IMG/VR virus record: IMGVR_UViG_3300007640_000057
Coordinates: 1-45,425 of that record
Source: a virus
Reading direction: 5' to 3' (one strand)
Length of the DNA stretch: 45,425 nt
The translations under genes were made by a program, and so were the position numbers. How positions within the stretch are numbered: position 1 is the first letter of the stretch; every line of letters starts with the position of its first letter. A model generated the notes under the pieces. The model had not been told where the DNA came from. It saw only the letters and a list, made by a program, of their open reading frames with translations, and did no database searches. Positions 16,582 to 31,885 of the stretch are shown one piece after another.

Positions 16582-16612
16582 ATCAAATGCGCTAATATTT
16601 TACAGTTTAGCT

Positions 16613-17089
16613 TTATTCTACTTCCCTTGATGAGGCATTTTTGAGTTCTTCGGCCATCATTCCAATTACACTGCCACTCATTTTCCTTGTTTTTAACAAT
16701 CTTTGCAACACTCTTAAGCTCTCATCTGTAATACCAGTTTCTTTTTTAATCTTTCGAGGATCAAACGGCAAGAAATCTTCAACAGTGTTTTTAGCTTTTT
16801 TCCCTGCAACAGCACCAAGAACAACAGTTGCAAGTTTTGCTGTAGAAACACTATGGAGATTATATTTTGTAATATCCTGCTTTTCAATCCATTTCATTGC
16901 AATCACTACATCTTGCACACGTTGCATGCCAAAATTCTCCGCATGCCACCGACTGTCTTTATAGTCAGACGACGACAAGCGGAAATAAATTTCGTTCCAA
17001 TTTGTAAGATTTTTTAGAACTCGACGGGCTCTTCGTTCGAGTCTTTCGGGCTCGCTAAGGAATTCTTCTTCGGAGTCGGTGCTTTTCCC
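16613..17089 (-). CDS. Tail assembly chaperone, frameshift-expressed C-terminal part (GT/T-like)
   Basis: This is the -1 frame half of a G/GT-type chaperone pair. The frame is open from just past a TAG at about 17093 to the stop at 16613 and has no ATG before residue M of GMQRVQD, well inside the conserved-looking part. It is therefore best read as a fusion to the upstream ORF through the slippery heptamer at 17083-17089. After the slip the protein reads GKSTDSEEEFLSEPERLERR and continues through NWNEIYFRLSSSDYKDSRWH to NASSREVE. In lambda the GT form recruits the tube protein while G coats the tape measure; the same roles are inferred here. Confidence 0.72.
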   Translation of the reverse strand, partial: GKSTDSEEEFLSEPERLERRARRVLKNLTNWNEIYFRLSSSDYKDSRWHAENFGMQRVQDVVIAMKWIEKQDITKYNLHSVSTAKLATVVLGAVAGKKAKNTVEDFLPFDPRKIKKETGITDESLRVLQRLLKTRKMSGSVIGMMAEELKNASSREVE

Positions 17090-17586
17090 AGGCTATCTCC
17101 CTTGACCTCCTCTTCCTGTTCAGAAACGATAAATTCCACCACTTTAGCAATTAAACGTCGCCCCATTGATTTAGTGTCTTCAATGGACCAATCATCAACA
17201 CGAGTCCATTGTTCATCAATCAAGGCTTCACCACGACAACGAATGAAAGTGGTTGCCATGCGTGCATTATTTGCTTCCACGCCACCAGAATCACTCAACA
17301 TGTCAAGTGTTTCTTCGGCAAAATCTTCCAGAAGCTCCATCTCGTTCATATCACCATTACCTTGAAGAAGGTCAAAAGCTTCGGTAAGAGAAACGTCTTT
17401 TGCTTTTGCAATTCGTTTTGCAAGTTGCACTGCACGAATCGTTGCTTGACTTTGAGACTTACTTGCTTCTTCCTGTTCAATAGCTTCCGCTACAAGCCAG
17501 CCACCATGCTTCTGTAAACGCAATGTAGGCAGTAGTTCAAAATATTCAGGCTCTTTGCCTTGAAGAACGAAACTATACTTGCTCAT
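17014..17586 (-). CDS. Tail assembly chaperone (G-like)
   Basis: 190 residues, acidic and helical, starting MSKYSFVLQGKEPEYFELLPTL. It lies between the head-tail connector/tube genes and the tape measure, the universal slot for tail chaperones, and ends in a charged low-complexity tail (KAPTPKKNSLASPKDSNEEPVEF). That tail is skipped when ribosomes slip at 17083-17089. Its start overlaps the end of the upstream 79-residue gene. The protein is expected to coat the tape measure during tail assembly and to be absent from finished virions. Confidence 0.75.
   Translation of the reverse strand: MSKYSFVLQGKEPEYFELLPTLRLQKHGGWLVAEAIEQEEASKSQSQATIRAVQLAKRIAKAKDVSLTEAFDLLQGNGDMNEMELLEDFAEETLDMLSDSGGVEANNARMATTFIRCRGEALIDEQWTRVDDWSIEDTKSMGRRLIAKVVEFIVSEQEEEVKGDSLGKAPTPKKNSLASPKDSNEEPVEF
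17083..17089 (-). promoter_or_regulatory. -1 programmed frameshift slippery site GGGAAAA
   Basis: The minus strand reads CTG GGA AAA GCA in the zero frame. G GGA AAA is a canonical X XXY YYZ heptamer, and its first base is the third base of a codon, as required ((17586-17089) mod 3 = 2). The -1 frame is closed by TAG only 4 nt upstream of the heptamer and is open for 159 codons downstream, so this is the only good place for the switch. Possible stimulatory stems follow (for example ACTCGA pairing with TCGAGT). The layout matches lambda G/GT. Confidence 0.85.
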
Positions 17587-17812
17587 GATTAAGGATGTTG
17601 AAAACGACGTTAAATGCCTTTACTCTTTCGCTGCCAGAACGAATGTCATAAGGCACTTCAACAATCAAAGAATGATGTTCGTTTGAAATTCTAACCGTAG
17701 TTCCGCTAAAAGAAATAGCGCAAACGATTCCAACTTCTAAGCCTGTGCCCTTGATCTTGCAATTTATCGCGTGAAGACGGTTATCCTCACTCCATAAATA
17801 ATCAACTTGCAT
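17573..17812 (-). CDS. Small protein of the tail operon, unknown function
   Basis: 79 residues, MQVDYLWSEDNRLHAINCKIKG. It overlaps the gp10-like connector gene upstream (by 11 nt) and the chaperone gene downstream (by 14 nt), so it is almost certainly translated in the operon. Beta-strand-like alternation (VGIVCAISFSGTTVRIS, HHSLIVEVPYDI) suggests a small beta-barrel. I do not recognise a family. Confidence 0.6.
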   Translation of the reverse strand: MQVDYLWSEDNRLHAINCKIKGTGLEVGIVCAISFSGTTVRISNEHHSLIVEVPYDIRSGSERVKAFNVVFNILNHEQV

Positions 17813-20466: not shown

Positions 20467-21381
20467 TCAGGAATTAGCTTGAACGTAGATCACACTCTTC
20501 GGATAGTAGATGGACACGCCACCCACACGAGCATGAGCAGGAACAATGAATTCCAGACCACGTTGCTGAGGAGGGAACAGTTCCAGAGGCTGAGGAATGT
20601 GCAGTTGCAGTTTCTCAGGATCACGCTTATAAATCACCATACGATTGGTGTTCAGTGACGTGCTGTTGTCCGCATCAAGCTGATTGATAGGCTCAACATT
20701 GCGGATGTAAGGATTGGTCCGCAGGAAGTATTCCAGCACAGTCACGTCCGAAGAATCGGAGTTGCGAGTGGTGGAAACAGTGTTGTAATCCTCATAAGGC
20801 ATAAGGATCGTGTCGGGCTGCTCAACCATCTTGGAAGCATTCACAATGGCACTGACGCCATAGTTCAGCAGTTCCAGCATTTCCTGAGCAGTGGTGCCAC
20901 TATCAGAGAACCACTTATCAGCAGCATAAACATCAACAGTGGAGTTGTTGAAGAAGCCGGTCAAGCTGGCAGAAGAATCACCGAACATTGCGATGGATTC
21001 CACTTTCTCCTCATAAGCACGACGCACGGCAGCGGCACGACGTTGCTCAAGAGCAATGTCAGCCATTTGAGCAGCACGCAGTTCCTGAACCGTATAGCCG
21101 AAAGAACCGCCAATAGAACGAATGTTGATGGTCTTTTCGACTTGCGTCACGTCAGCGCGAGGCAGGTCATCGGCAGCATCAGCAATAAGCTTGAACTCAC
21201 CAGTCGCATTCATCACGCGATAAGTGTAAGTTTGTGCGCCGGGACCAGCTTCAGAAGTGACTGGCAGAATGGTGGGATACTTAATATCCGCATACTTCGT
21301 CTCGAAAATTTGAGGACGAATAAACTCAAGCTGACGGCTTAAAAACAGTCCAGCTTCAGCATCAAAGCGTTCAAAAGTCAT
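20467..21381 (-). CDS. Major capsid protein, DUF2184-like
   Basis: 304 residues. DLPRADVTQVEKTINIRSIGGSFGYT followed by VQELRAAQMADIALEQRRAAAVRRAYEEK and a GDSSASLTGFFN loop match the DUF2184 family of HK97-fold capsid proteins. The C-terminal FIVPAHARVGGVSIYYPKSVIYV is a typical closing strand set. It has one of only two canonical Shine-Dalgarno sites noticed in the window, AGGAGG placed 5 nt before the ATG, consistent with very high expression. It follows the cement protein, an order common to phages with this capsid type. Confidence 0.9.
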   Translation of the reverse strand: MTFERFDAEAGLFLSRQLEFIRPQIFETKYADIKYPTILPVTSEAGPGAQTYTYRVMNATGEFKLIADAADDLPRADVTQVEKTINIRSIGGSFGYTVQELRAAQMADIALEQRRAAAVRRAYEEKVESIAMFGDSSASLTGFFNNSTVDVYAADKWFSDSGTTAQEMLELLNYGVSAIVNASKMVEQPDTILMPYEDYNTVSTTRNSDSSDVTVLEYFLRTNPYIRNVEPINQLDADNSTSLNTNRMVIYKRDPEKLQLHIPQPLELFPPQQRGLEFIVPAHARVGGVSIYYPKSVIYVQANS

Positions 21382-21953: not shown

Positions 21954-23147
21954 TCAGCGAGCCTCCTTAGAAGTGGCGAGGGGTGCTTTCCATGCGCTGG
22001 TCAGATTTTCCCAGTAGGAAGAACCTGCAACGGGATTAGCAATGGTAGAAACGGCTTTACGAAGTTCTTCCGTTTCAGGGGAGTCGTTGCGCTTAGCAAC
22101 TTCAGAAAGAGTGTCAAACATTGCAGTGACATAATCATCAGATTTCTCTGAAAGATCCACGTCACCACGAACAGTCTTGACAACGCTTTCCATGATTTCA
22201 CGAGCAGACTTGCCAGAGAAATCAAAGTCGCTATCAAGATTGACACGAGCTTTGTCAATCAGGGCAACACGCTCTTCTACCAGGGAGTCGAGGTTGATCT
22301 CGCGAGCTGCGTCCAGTTCAACTTTCAGGCTTTCAATTTCTTCAGAAAGCGCATCAGCGCGACCTTCGGCAGAATCAGCTTTGCCCTTCATTTCTTTTTC
22401 CATGGCCATCATGTCTTCCTTAAGTTCGGAAGCTTTAGCCATCATTTCGTCATACTTTTTCTTCATCATGTCATACGACATTTTGGCGTCTTCGCGTTCT
22501 TTAGTGATCGCCAGAGCTACGCTCTCGCTCACCTCAAACTCAGCGCCATCGAACATAACCTTGGCGGTCATAGATGGTTCCTCATATTGTGGAATTAAGG
22601 AGGGATCGGCAGCATCTAGACGATCTAGATGAAGCTTCACCTGAGGGCCTGCGCGGCCTCTACGAACAACGGCGACATGATTACCACTAATGGATTTTTG
22701 AATTCCATCGTAGTTTTCACCGTTTTCAGTAACACCAGGTGTAGGATCAAATTCAACCCTATAACCTGCGCTCACTTCTTTAGCATCACCTCGCATAATA
22801 CGATCAATCGCTTCTTGGTCTGTAATGGTCATGACTGCACGAACAAAGCCGTTGTCATAAATAATGTCAGTACCAGTGAATCCGATTTGATAATTTTTAG
22901 TATTTTGCGCGTCCAATAAAATTGGTGGATGCTCAAAAGTGATGGCCTTACCCCCGAAGGATGTCAGGCTCTCAGGGGACGCCACTTCTGCTTCCGGTCG
23001 ATACTCACGCCTAATTGAACCGTCCGCATCGGTGTACGTTTGCACGCCAGTGCGAGCGATTGTAGCCCAAGCCCGAAGATAACCTTCAGGAGTGGTCTCG
23101 TACTTTTCAATTGGCGCTACATCGTAGCGAAAACATGTGTCGCCCAT
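21954..23147 (-). CDS. DUF2213-type prohead protease fused to a scaffold domain
   Basis: 397 residues. The N-terminal about 180 residues match DUF2213: TPEGYLRAWATIARTGVQ, SFGGKAITFEHPP (candidate catalytic His73), RGDAKEVSAGYRVEF (candidate Ser126) and GNHVAVVRRGRAGP. After DRLDAADPS the remainder is a charged coiled coil (about residues 210-310, KKKYDEMMAKASELKEDMMA) of the kind that acts as internal scaffold and is then digested. Placement just before the cement and capsid genes agrees. Catalytic assignments are inference from conserved-looking residues. Confidence 0.82.
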   Translation of the reverse strand: MGDTCFRYDVAPIEKYETTPEGYLRAWATIARTGVQTYTDADGSIRREYRPEAEVASPESLTSFGGKAITFEHPPILLDAQNTKNYQIGFTGTDIIYDNGFVRAVMTITDQEAIDRIMRGDAKEVSAGYRVEFDPTPGVTENGENYDGIQKSISGNHVAVVRRGRAGPQVKLHLDRLDAADPSLIPQYEEPSMTAKVMFDGAEFEVSESVALAITKEREDAKMSYDMMKKKYDEMMAKASELKEDMMAMEKEMKGKADSAEGRADALSEEIESLKVELDAAREINLDSLVEERVALIDKARVNLDSDFDFSGKSAREIMESVVKTVRGDVDLSEKSDDYVTAMFDTLSEVAKRNDSPETEELRKAVSTIANPVAGSSYWENLTSAWKAPLATSKEAR

Positions 23148-25071: not shown

Positions 25072-25853
25072 AAGTCTTCAAGACCTTCCTCCAAAGAGAT
25101 CAATGGATGAAAGCCAAGCGCGAAAATCTTGCCGCAGTCTAACGCCATTTTTACTCGCGACTCTGCATTAGTCGGCTGAAACGTCCTGCAATTACTAGAA
25201 GACTTTAAATATTTCTTGCAAATTTCAACTGCCTCTGAAACGGGAATGCTGCTTCCACTGCCCACATTGTAAATTTCATTAACCTTTCCTTTCGAGCAAA
25301 CCAAATCAATAGCCCTGCACGCATCGTAAATATGAATGTAGTCACGAGTGAGGCCAGCAACGATATTGACATCCTTGTCTTCCCTTAAGCTATCGATCAA
25401 ATATCGAAGAACATTGCGACTGCCAATACTTTTATCCGGTCCTCCATAAACATTACCAAGACGCAAGATTCGCCAATTCATATTATGTCGCGAGCAGTAA
25501 TCAATAACAATTTGCTCAGCACAGCGTTTCGTAATAGGATACAAACCCGTTGGATTACAGCAGTCTTCTTCCTTCATTGGAAGATTAGTGTCACCATAAA
25601 CAAACCAAGAACTAACAAAATTAAAAGTTTTCACTCCATTCTCATGACAAGCCTCCAGTCTTTTAAGGAGAGCCGTCAAATTAGTATCAGAGTGAATCCA
25701 TGGATTAGTGTAAAAATTACTTGTAGTACTGATCAAATACAAAACTTCTCTAGTGAGAGGCTCCAGCTCGTCTCTAGGAATCGCTATTGAATCGTATAGT
25801 TCAGTGAAATAAGTTCCAATGATACCAGTGGCACCATAAACACTAAAAGTCAA
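24960..25853 (-). CDS. NAD-dependent sugar epimerase/reductase (extended SDR)
   Basis: 297 residues. N-terminal dinucleotide motif GATGIIG (7-13), active-site Ser81/Ser82 in FVSSWFVYGDT, and YPITK (Tyr105, Lys109). Downstream RLGNVYGG and TRDYIHIYDACRAI are typical of nucleotide-sugar SDRs. The start is TTG at 25853, overlapping the TGA of the upstream gene as TTGA; the next in-frame ATG is well past the Rossmann motif. The last about 35 residues lie over the start of the RfbH-like gene and look like read-through tail rather than domain. Together with the RfbH-like enzyme it could finish a dideoxysugar (as CDP-abequose/paratose synthases do); this pairing is inference. Confidence 0.8.
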   Translation of the reverse strand: MTFSVYGATGIIGTYFTELYDSIAIPRDELEPLTREVLYLISTTSNFYTNPWIHSDTNLTALLKRLEACHENGVKTFNFVSSWFVYGDTNLPMKEEDCCNPTGLYPITKRCAEQIVIDYCSRHNMNWRILRLGNVYGGPDKSIGSRNVLRYLIDSLREDKDVNIVAGLTRDYIHIYDACRAIDLVCSKGKVNEIYNVGSGSSIPVSEAVEICKKYLKSSSNCRTFQPTNAESRVKMALDCGKIFALGFHPLISLEEGLEDLCKSQKFCTPAHFLTVEKLKQQSNAWKAMVGFLRGLM

Positions 25854-26209
25854 TTGTTCTTTTTACGAGCTTCAACCATCTTAATGATTCGATTCGCCCA
25901 GGAACGACCCGCGTCTCCGCCCCATAACTGCCAAGCAATATAACCAGCATCATCCTCGCCGCCGCTCTTGTTCTTCTCGTGGCGAGAGAAAAATGCAGCC
26001 ATACGTTTAATCGTTGCATAGCTCACTTTACCGCCGCCTGCCAGATCAGAAGCTCTTGCCACTCCACTACCAATGCCTTGTTTACCAGCTTCCTGCGTAG
26101 ACAAGCCCCCTTTCTTGTACTTCTTGCGAAGCTCTAAACCACGACGGGCTGCAGCTCTTACGGACGATGGAGGGGCGAACGATTCAACGTCGCCCCTGTC
26201 TACTTTTTT
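25850..26209 (-). CDS. Frameshift-expressed phage domain (RAAARRGLELR...WGGDAGRSWANRI)
   Basis: This frame has no start codon before TTG at 26104, yet the conserved-looking part begins earlier. Translation from the slip site gives VDRGDVESFAPPSSVRAAAR, then RGLELRKKYKKGG, 33 codons upstream of that TTG. From memory, related phage proteins carry PP..VR.AA.RGLELR before QEAG..GIGSGVARA, and the later segment MAAFFSRHEKNKSGGEDDAGY is a recurrent phage domain of unknown role. The whole is best explained as the C-terminal half of a -1 fusion with the gene at 26200-26451. Without the shift only an N-terminally cut 84-residue form from TTG would be made. Function unknown. Confidence 0.7.
   Translation of the reverse strand, partial: KKVDRGDVESFAPPSSVRAAARRGLELRKKYKKGGLSTQEAGKQGIGSGVARASDLAGGGKVSYATIKRMAAFFSRHEKNKSGGEDDAGYIAWQLWGGDAGRSWANRIIKMVEARKKNN
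26171..26209 (-). promoter_or_regulatory. -1 programmed frameshift signal: AAAAAAG plus stem-loop
   Basis: In the zero frame the minus strand reads GAA A AA... as GAA, AAA, AAG, TAG. The heptamer A AAA AAG (26209-26203) is the strongest bacterial slippery sequence and is followed immediately by the stop. After a 5-nt spacer comes AGGGGCGA (26197-26190), perfectly complementary to TCGCCCCT (26178-26171), with an 11-nt loop. Heptamer, stop, spacer and stem all match the known requirements for -1 frameshifting. Confidence 0.78.
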
Positions 26210-26451
26210 TCTTCTTTTAGCTTCTTAAGATACCCACGGCAACGAGCTTCTCCCGGCCCCATCTTTTCGTCGATGTAGCTAGCCCAATATTCATCACTCT
26301 TGCCTTCTTTCTTGATACCAGCTTCAGATAAGGCAATCGCCATTGCTTGACGAGGATCTTTTACCAATTCACCTCCACTGCTTTTCAAGGTGCCAGCCTT
26401 AAATTCTCGCATCACAGTGCGAATTTTTTCGCGACGCTGATTTGTGGTCAT
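26200..26451 (-). CDS. DUF6496-like small protein, zero-frame product of a frameshift pair
   Basis: 83 residues from ATG at 26451. EKIRTVMREFKAGTLKSSGGELVKDPRQA followed by MAIALSEAGI matches the DUF6496-type pattern seen in many phage and bacterial small proteins (VMREFK.G.L.S......R.QA.AIALSEA). It ends KKLKEEKK-stop directly on a slippery A AAA AAG. A TTG start at 26463 overlapping the upstream TGA is also possible. The full-length fused product would be about 200 residues. Confidence 0.7.
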   Translation of the reverse strand: MTTNQRREKIRTVMREFKAGTLKSSGGELVKDPRQAMAIALSEAGIKKEGKSDEYWASYIDEKMGPGEARCRGYLKKLKEEKK

Positions 26452-29154: not shown

Positions 29155-29835
29155 TCAAATCGGAACAGATGGCGCCTGTTGCCGCAAATATTCGATACTG
29201 CAACGGCACCTTGCTCTGCATTCACAACGCTCACCAGGCAATGGTAAAGAACCAATTGAAACAATCCCTGCTCTTGCATAACGAATGCAATCATCACAAT
29301 GTTGTGCCATTGGGTCTAGCACACGACGCATTAAAGAATAACCCTGTTCCCGCTGCCTAAGTTCAGCGCCCTGCCAATATGAACCTCTAGTGCTTTCGGC
29401 ATACAAACCAATACGAGCCAATGCCATTGGCATTGAAACTTTTTGTTCCAAAAGATCAAGCGCAAACCCTTGCAGGTAGGAATATTCCTGCCTTAGTCGC
29501 TGACCGATTTTGCCGTAATCACTTGCGGTCATATTATCCCTTCCGCCTTTACCAATGATCGCGTTTTGAACATGAGCAGATTTGATTGCTTCTCTTACAC
29601 TTTGCTGCCATTGATCGAACGTGATGTTGCCATCAGCCATCATGCGTGTATAACGACGTAATTTCGTTGCAAGCTTTTCGATGCGCTTATCCACGATCGC
29701 ATGAACCGCCTTCCGGCTAAGGAACCGTCCTCGTTCGTCCCGATAGCGACCAGTAGAACGATCAAAAGACCACTCTGCATCAAGCCTGTCGGCAGTGACT
29801 GCCGCCGAAAACGAGGAAAGATCATTCAGCATCAT
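29155..29835 (-). CDS. MuF-like minor head protein
   Basis: About 226 residues from ATG at 29835 (or 29832), overlapping the end of the portal gene. A charged helical N-terminus is followed by a Cys-rich C-terminus (HCDDCIRYARAGIVSIGSLP, then GERCECRARCRCSIEYL). This matches the C-terminal module of Mu gpF / SPP1 gp7 minor head proteins (C..C......I...P.....C.C.C). Position right after the portal is the rule for this family. Probably carried inside the capsid; role inferred. Confidence 0.8.
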   Translation of the reverse strand: MMLNDLSSFSAAVTADRLDAEWSFDRSTGRYRDERGRFLSRKAVHAIVDKRIEKLATKLRRYTRMMADGNITFDQWQQSVREAIKSAHVQNAIIGKGGRDNMTASDYGKIGQRLRQEYSYLQGFALDLLEQKVSMPMALARIGLYAESTRGSYWQGAELRQREQGYSLMRRVLDPMAQHCDDCIRYARAGIVSIGSLPLPGERCECRARCRCSIEYLRQQAPSVPI

Positions 29836-31885
29836 CAGCCTCAAGCATTTCCTTGAAGCGTTCTGGAGCTTCATCCTTCCATTGATTCAAGGCGTCCTCG
29901 ATGTCAGCGTCTGAAATTAAAGAAGCTTCGTCAATGTCCGCAAGAATAATGCCTTCAGCCTTTACTGGATCAATGGCATCTTGAACTTTACTGCTAACCA
30001 TTTTTGCTTTGCCTTTGCGTTCAGCGTCAGGATCTTTGCGCCTTTTACGGGCCACAATTGTTTGCCTTTGTTCTTTGCTCATGGCCTTCGCTTTTTGTTC
30101 AGGAAGACACTTGGGCTTTCCTTCTTTCTCTCCACGGGCTCCGCAAGGGCCAAGGATTTCTCCATTAGCTCCAATCCTCACCCATTTTTCTTTGAACCAT
30201 TTGTCCAGATCATCGGCATGAATCTCTCCTTCATCATTTTTAAATGCACCAGATAAAGAGCCATGCTTTTTCTTGTATGCGCTCTTGTATTGCTGCACCA
30301 CATAACCACTCGCATAAGCAGAAGGCCAAACTTTGAACTTGCTTTTAGCAGCACTAACAGCACGACGATGAAGCTCTTTATCAGTAAAGACAACATCACC
30401 GCGTTTTGCTTCAAGGTCACGTTCAAGGAACAAACCAGCTTCCGCATCAGCAACTTCCCTGGTTCCATCCATTGGAAGAGTGCCGTTTTCTTCATTTAAT
30501 GGATCTCGACCGCCAGGAGGCACAGCAAAGTTTTTTTGATCTCCTTGCATGGGCAATTCACGAGGAACCGATGGATCGAGAGTGAGTTCCATTGACCACT
30601 CAGAACCGCCGTAACGGGCGTCTGCCACTTCCTTAGGACTCAATACACCTAACTGAATGTAACGACCGTCTACAGCCGCCACACGAGCCCTTACATCAGC
30701 TTTTTCGCGTTCATTCAATTCAAATAGATCATTGAAATGCACTCGCCATGAATCTGGCACTCGCCCTTTCGTTGGACCATCATTACTAAGCATGATGTAT
30801 TCGATTAGTTTCTTCAATGGACGGCGAAATGAAGCTTGTTGGTAATCAGCTAAAGTTTTCGCGAAATCACGCTCTTCACTTCGACCAGTAGAACCAAGTC
30901 CTCCAGGACTTTCGCCGAATAACACCGTATGAGGAATTTTTGACGCTCCAATAATATCAATACGAAGCTTCTCCAATACATCACTAATACCATTGAAATT
31001 ACGACCAAGAAATTCAAGCTCTTCCTTGTCAGCATCAATCGCATAGCCACGATAAACACTCTTGCTCATATCATTCAAGATCAAGCGATTCCTGACATCC
31101 CCTTCCTTGCCTGCAGCAAGCATTTGTGACAAGCCCTTGATTTTATGAACAAAAATATCAAATTCACTCATTAAAGTTGCAGTGGAATGCAAGCCAGTCC
31201 AGTAATGCTTGAAACTGTCATAAACAGTTTGAAGACTACTCATTCCCCATCCATAGTTACGCTGCCTAATGCGATACGGAAGCCAGTCACCATCAAACCG
31301 TAAAATTCTGTCTTTATGAATACGAACAAGTTGAGGCTTGTTAATTAAATCACCAGAGATAATTTGATAATAAGTCGCCTTGGAATAGTCGTATAAATTT
31401 TCCTCATTAATAACAGGAGCAATTTGCCACCTATCTAATACTTCCATTCCTTCAATGGATCGAATATTTGCCTTATCAACTGGTTGATCTGCTCTACGCC
31501 CATCATTGATGTACAGTAAAATAACAGCGCCCCCATACAGCCTTGAATTTTTAGAGGCAAGCATTAAGTTTTCAAGAATATAAAGATCTTCAATTACTTG
31601 CTCAATACCAGCAACTTCCTCTGCAGCCGCACCCTCACCCCCAAACAACACCTTAAATCCACGCCTTGTGGCTTGTTCTGCATAAATATCAATAATACGA
31701 CGAGGCAGCCATTCACCATAAAGACCTTCAAGCTCTTCTTGCGTTAAAAAGACAATAGGCTTCGTATTAGTGGATAAAGTTTTGTCTCTTCCGCTAACTC
31801 CCATGCCTGTGAAGACATTGGTAAGCCCATCATTACGCACACCATTGTCAACGACATGACCCAATTTAATTGATTCTTCGGCCAT
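29822..31885 (-). CDS. Portal protein (DUF1073-like) with an extra C-terminal basic domain
   Basis: 687 residues. Residues 1-450 show the DUF1073-type portal pattern: EGLYGEWLPRRIIDIYAEQATRRGF, KNSRLYGGAVILLYINDGR, IGASKIPHTVLFGESPGGLGSTGRSEERDF, then a long helix with KLIEYIML. From about residue 480 a separate region begins (FTDKELHRRAVSAAKSKFKV, WPSAYASGYVVQQYKSAYKK, LGPCGARGEKEGKPKCLP, AMSKEQRQTIVARKRRKDP). It is like small Lys-rich phage and algal-virus domains of the DUF5872 type with a paired-Cys motif. Portals usually stop before this. The start at 31885 lies in the 66-bp divergent gap with the plus-strand operon. Confidence 0.85.
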   Translation of the reverse strand: MAEESIKLGHVVDNGVRNDGLTNVFTGMGVSGRDKTLSTNTKPIVFLTQEELEGLYGEWLPRRIIDIYAEQATRRGFKVLFGGEGAAAEEVAGIEQVIEDLYILENLMLASKNSRLYGGAVILLYINDGRRADQPVDKANIRSIEGMEVLDRWQIAPVINEENLYDYSKATYYQIISGDLINKPQLVRIHKDRILRFDGDWLPYRIRQRNYGWGMSSLQTVYDSFKHYWTGLHSTATLMSEFDIFVHKIKGLSQMLAAGKEGDVRNRLILNDMSKSVYRGYAIDADKEELEFLGRNFNGISDVLEKLRIDIIGASKIPHTVLFGESPGGLGSTGRSEERDFAKTLADYQQASFRRPLKKLIEYIMLSNDGPTKGRVPDSWRVHFNDLFELNEREKADVRARVAAVDGRYIQLGVLSPKEVADARYGGSEWSMELTLDPSVPRELPMQGDQKNFAVPPGGRDPLNEENGTLPMDGTREVADAEAGLFLERDLEAKRGDVVFTDKELHRRAVSAAKSKFKVWPSAYASGYVVQQYKSAYKKKHGSLSGAFKNDEGEIHADDLDKWFKEKWVRIGANGEILGPCGARGEKEGKPKCLPEQKAKAMSKEQRQTIVARKRRKDPDAERKGKAKMVSSKVQDAIDPVKAEGIILADIDEASLISDADIEDALNQWKDEAPERFKEMLEADDAE

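Follow-up and report, generated by a model that had tools for sequence, protein, structure and literature searches.

A conserved, probable programmed −1 frameshift links a DUF6496 gene to a head-associated domain in S-CBS4-like phages

Comparison of related phage loci indicates that the junction between a small DUF6496 gene (A) and the overlapping domain in its −1 frame (B) is very probably a conserved programmed −1 ribosomal frameshift, producing A together with a fraction of fused A-B protein that may act in head assembly. We analyzed a 45,425-base virus record, IMGVR_UViG_3300007640_000057, positions 1 to 45,425 (here called the window). An initial annotation had proposed a frameshift at this site from the letters of the window, and that reading is now supported by the heptamer found in every relative with the −1 layout, by covariation in the downstream hairpin, by natural in-frame fusions, and by relatives that have lost B. 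Slippage in vivo, and its efficiency, we infer from these comparisons. The layout is not specific to the window and is widespread in S-CBS4-like viruses.

The head genes of the window lie on the minus strand. With 82% identity to its counterpart in the marine Synechococcus phage S-CBS4, the major capsid protein (20467-21381) identifies the window as an S-CBS4-like phage. The DUF6496 label given to A was borne out by a match to Pfam PF20106 that exceeds the gathering cut-off (30.4 bits against 24, E=5.3e-7); matches of A to RecA were set aside, with no individual matched stretch being significant. An ATG start is present in A in 81 of 85 relatives; for the other 4, the sequence covered contained none of the start codons. 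The A/B locus sits in the head cluster, with the portal on one side and the protease and capsid genes on the other, and is therefore outside the tail-chaperone locus, as had been claimed; searches of Pfam and PHROGs returned no tail assembly chaperone G or T match for A or B, which places neither of them in the G/GT family. Elsewhere in the window, the minus-strand region 16600-17620 carries a probable tail assembly chaperone pair with the usual lambda-type frameshift: the open reading frame (ORF) at 17586-17014 includes CTG GGA AAA GCA (a G_GGA_AAA heptamer), and the −1 frame stays open ahead of a tape-measure-sized gene.

Table 1. Elements of the A/B junction in the window.
Feature	Coordinates	Strand	Description
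Gene A, DUF6496 protein	26200..26451	−	83 aa, 0 frame, stop TAG 26202-26200
Slippery heptamer A_AAA_AAG	26203..26209	−	X_XXY_YYZ at equivalent position in 99/99 relatives with the −1 layout
Stimulatory hairpin, 8 bp (putative)	26171..26197	−	Pairing kept and covarying in relatives, weaker in in-frame fusions
B domain, −1 frame	25850..26203	−	117 aa, phrog_2859; first ATG/GTG/TTG at 26104
Predicted frameshift product A-B	25850..26451	−	83 + 117 = 200 residues; inferred

Gene A ends GAA GAA AAA AAG TAG, and the two arms of the hairpin, AGGGGCGA (26197-26190) and TCGCCCCT (26178-26171), pair perfectly, starting 5 nt past the heptamer; both the A AAA AAG TAG ending and the 8-bp stem at that distance were thus confirmed in the letters. 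The junction region folds at −33.7 kcal/mol (z of −1.8), and a scan of both strands shows no terminator there, so we rejected a terminator as the explanation of the hairpin. In a scan of about 11,000 codon positions across 31 ORFs of the window, the heptamer of A was alone among slippery heptamers in having a perfect stem of at least 7 bp 3 to 9 nt after it, and just one further in-frame AAAAAAG, GGGAAAG, or CCCAAAG heptamer turned up. Upstream of the heptamer, the best Shine-Dalgarno (SD) duplex averages −6.24, close to the −5.99 of shuffled sequence, with no clear enrichment. An open stretch of 117 codons extends in the −1 frame from 26203 to 25850, and its first ATG, GTG, or TTG is a TTG at codon 34, confirming that 33 codons precede any of these starts; the predicted product likewise agrees with the roughly 200 residues first estimated.

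Viral contigs searched for B and A yielded about 160 loci, and an alignment-based search then added to these. Of 151 first-round loci, 136 have B in the −1 frame relative to A and 15 have both in one frame, with no +1 case; over all loci there were 99 distinct junctions in −1, 12 in frame, and none in +1. Every one of the 99 −1 junctions has a heptamer in the frame of A (AAAAAAG in 75, GGGAAAG in 18, CCCAAAG in 6) at one shared position, lying one codon upstream in 2 of them, and in nearly all of the junctions listed in full, A stops immediately after the heptamer or one codon later. The cultured isolate S-CBS4 also carries this cassette, but its deposited record splits it into gp018 and gp019 and places the start of gp019 at a GTG within the B domain.

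That deposited start illustrates the main alternative, namely, that B is a separate gene whose translation begins within the −1 frame at GTG (Val15) or TTG (Leu34), perhaps through coupled reinitiation, with no frameshift involved. The 96 relatives compared do offer such codons, with GTG at Val15 in 29 and TTG at Leu34 in 37, but each is merely one synonymous choice: Val15 is otherwise GTA (44), GTT (21), or GTC (2), and Leu34 is otherwise CTG (19), TTA (16), or, for the rest, CTT, CTA, or CTC. A GTG or TTG occurs within residues 1 to 33 in 44 of the 96, whereas the other 52 have no start codon there. Furthermore, the segment upstream of the candidate starts is conserved as protein and, in phages in which B has its own ATG, the same stretch lies within the domain, in agreement with the suggestion that the start-less codons encode the N terminus of B. 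Over B residues 12 to 33, mean entropy at the first, second, and third codon positions is 0.45, 0.23, and 1.39, the signature of translation of the start-less stretch in the −1 frame. An internal start also leaves the heptamer unexplained. Because the candidate start codons are not conserved, we rejected this alternative as very unlikely, and with it the independent start at the TTG that the initial annotation had weighed against its own proposal. The junction tryptic peptide, GDAEGFAPPASVR in S-CBS4 or GDVESFAPPSSVR in the window, is one that only a frameshift could yield, since the first residues of GDAEGFAPPASVR precede the GTG annotated as the start.

Even less probable is transcriptional slippage on the A run, by which mRNAs that had gained or lost one base would give the fusion with no slippage of the ribosome. 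The window does have a run of seven A's, most relatives have AAAAAAG, and one in-frame relative (L126) shows that a single added A joins the frames. However, the 18 GGGAAAG and 6 CCCAAAG junctions lack a long homopolymer and yet keep the X_XXY_YYZ phase, and the hairpin is conserved at 5 to 6 nt; the GGGAAAG and CCCAAAG variants led us to reject transcriptional slippage. A sequencing error, the other objection raised in the initial annotation, or a decaying pseudogene, suggested by the homopolymer run and by the one-A difference in L126/L013, is refuted at the level of the family by the identical layout of 99 distinct junctions, an isolated phage among them, and by conservation of the −1 frame as protein, and we give it almost no credence.

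The programmed frameshift is further supported by the hairpin, which starts 5 to 6 nt past the heptamer across relatives and whose stem columns pair, one by one, in 85 to 100% of the −1 junctions. Columns 47 and 63, which form the most variable pair, switch between C-G, T-G, and A-T. Along a tree derived from the downstream B sequence only, the two columns change together in 8 or 9 of 10 independent contrasts and oppositely in none (p about 0.004). The hairpin lies within coding sequence, so its conservation is in part protein constraint. AGG encodes the Arg of the 5′ arm in 91 of 96 −1 junctions but accounts for only 16% (142 of 900) of the Arg codons elsewhere in B; in-frame relatives have AGG at the 5′-arm site in 2 of 12 and CGN in the others. 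Mean hairpin energy is −16.2 kcal/mol in the −1 junctions versus −6.8 kcal/mol in the in-frame relatives, in which the protein motif is largely retained. It therefore appears that there is selection on the RNA, beyond that on the protein, only where a frameshift is needed. The standard hairpin is mostly absent from 4 of the 99 junctions, all of the CCCAAAG type; in two of these loci (L105 and L107) folding predicts a different, much longer hairpin after the heptamer (−37.6 kcal/mol), a possible swap of stimulatory structure.

Two groups of relatives provide natural controls. Among the relatives, 12 distinct examples have both domains in one frame, of which 11 have lost the heptamer and most have lost the hairpin pairing. 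These fusions are nested inside frameshift lineages on the tree, needing 2 to 4 changes, which suggests that the frameshift is ancestral and that the fusion is a working product. One of the fusions (L126/L013) has its frames joined by one additional A in the run, either an evolved insertion or a sequencing error. At three other loci (L097, L119, and L122), A has been kept and B lost, and the A genes end without heptamer or hairpin. Taken together, the in-frame fusions and the B-less loci imply that A alone and A-B both seem to be viable, as fits a system that uses both products.

B corresponds to phrog_2859, of unknown function in PHROGs, and no Pfam or NCBIfam model for it was found. Its company elsewhere is with head proteins: it stands at the N terminus of a Limnohabitans DC31 protein with a Peptidase_S78_2 prohead-protease domain and of a Vibrio 1.122.A protein with a weak match to DUF2213. 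In the S-CBS1 capsid protein (836 residues) it lies near the N terminus, in L278 it stands at the C-terminal end of a portal-like protein, and in HRTV-4 it lies inside the portal/Mu gpF protein. The AlphaFold2 model of a natural in-frame A-B fusion (L030; mean pLDDT of 89), in which B is predicted to be all-helical, gave fold matches in BFVD to viral models named prohead protease (E near 1e-6), XkdF, and portal; in the PDB, B had no relative in either sequence (E>0.6) or fold (best E of 3.3). By its company, B is a head-protease/portal module, which adds to what was first noted. The portal protein of the window (29822-31885, minus strand) has a C-terminal DUF5872, in a place similar to that of B in L278. 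Standalone B genes also occur on chromosomes of Rhizobiales and other bacteria (L185, L193, and L171 near 4000, from Rhizobium, Rhizobiales, and Verrucomicrobiota), and their neighbors in Rhizobiales and Xanthomonas offered no clear hint of function.

We propose that the majority of ribosomes would terminate where the DUF6496 gene ends, releasing the short protein A, and that a fraction would slip back by one base through tandem slippage of tRNAs on A_AAA_AAG (or, in relatives, on G_GGA_AAG or C_CCA_AAG), aided by the hairpin 5 to 6 nt downstream, and continue in the −1 frame to make A-B. A alone could then serve as partner or competitor of A-B in a ratio set by the frameshift. Given that B elsewhere is placed on prohead proteases, protease-capsid fusions, or portals, A-B would most likely act inside the assembling head, a role to which, taken by itself, we give roughly even chances. 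No protease domain was found in A or B in Pfam or PHROGs, the N-terminal B module being all that is shared with the prohead proteases. The protease gene of the window (21954-23147) is a DUF2213 gene without B, so the link to head assembly draws on domain company and gene position. More tentatively, the frameshift may be a dosing device in head assembly, with a protease/portal domain split off and supplied in trans on a DUF6496 carrier, in which case the heptamer and hairpin would fix the number of head-domain copies per prohead.

Automated work on frameshifts in phages has mainly concerned tail chaperones (PMC10885494). Within the open literature (subscription papers were outside our scope), we found no report of the A/B gene pair, no paper on DUF6496, and nothing on cyanophages and programmed frameshifting that points to this locus. 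The mechanism is thus the known, ordinary −1 frameshift of the dnaX and lambda type, and the locus is new. The A/B junction is a well-supported case of programmed frameshifting away from the tail-chaperone locus, in S-CBS4-like viruses from many metagenomes; the in-frame and domain-loss lineages act as natural controls, and the evolutionary evidence is unusually complete. The finding also revises how S-CBS4 gp018/gp019 are annotated and draws attention to a head-associated domain that is widespread, structurally uncharacterized, and apparently regulated in its stoichiometry.

The heptamers of E. coli dnaX (A_AAA_AAG) and lambda G/GT (G_GGA_AAG) are both of the tandem-slip type. The A/B junction resembles these systems in its tandem-slip heptamer and close stop, and dnaX in its downstream hairpin; it differs in the gene concerned, in a product that belongs with neither the tail chaperones nor the polymerase subunits, and in having no clear upstream SD stimulator. 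Capsid proteins extended by frameshifting are known from gene 10 of phages T3 and T7, Lactobacillus phage A2, and Listeria phages A118, A500, and PSA (PMC5009743). As in those cases, a fraction of a head-cluster protein would gain a C-terminal domain, and relatives may be in frame; unlike in those cases, it is a small DUF6496 protein rather than the capsid protein that would be extended, and the domain added in A-B, all-helical in the model, is not known to be Ig-like. Finally, the B domain of the window is homologous to that of the Peptidase_S78_2 and DUF2213 prohead proteases, S-CBS1 gp04, and the portals, but whereas B is there encoded in one frame with a large head protein, in the window it would be attached to a DUF6496 protein through a frameshift.
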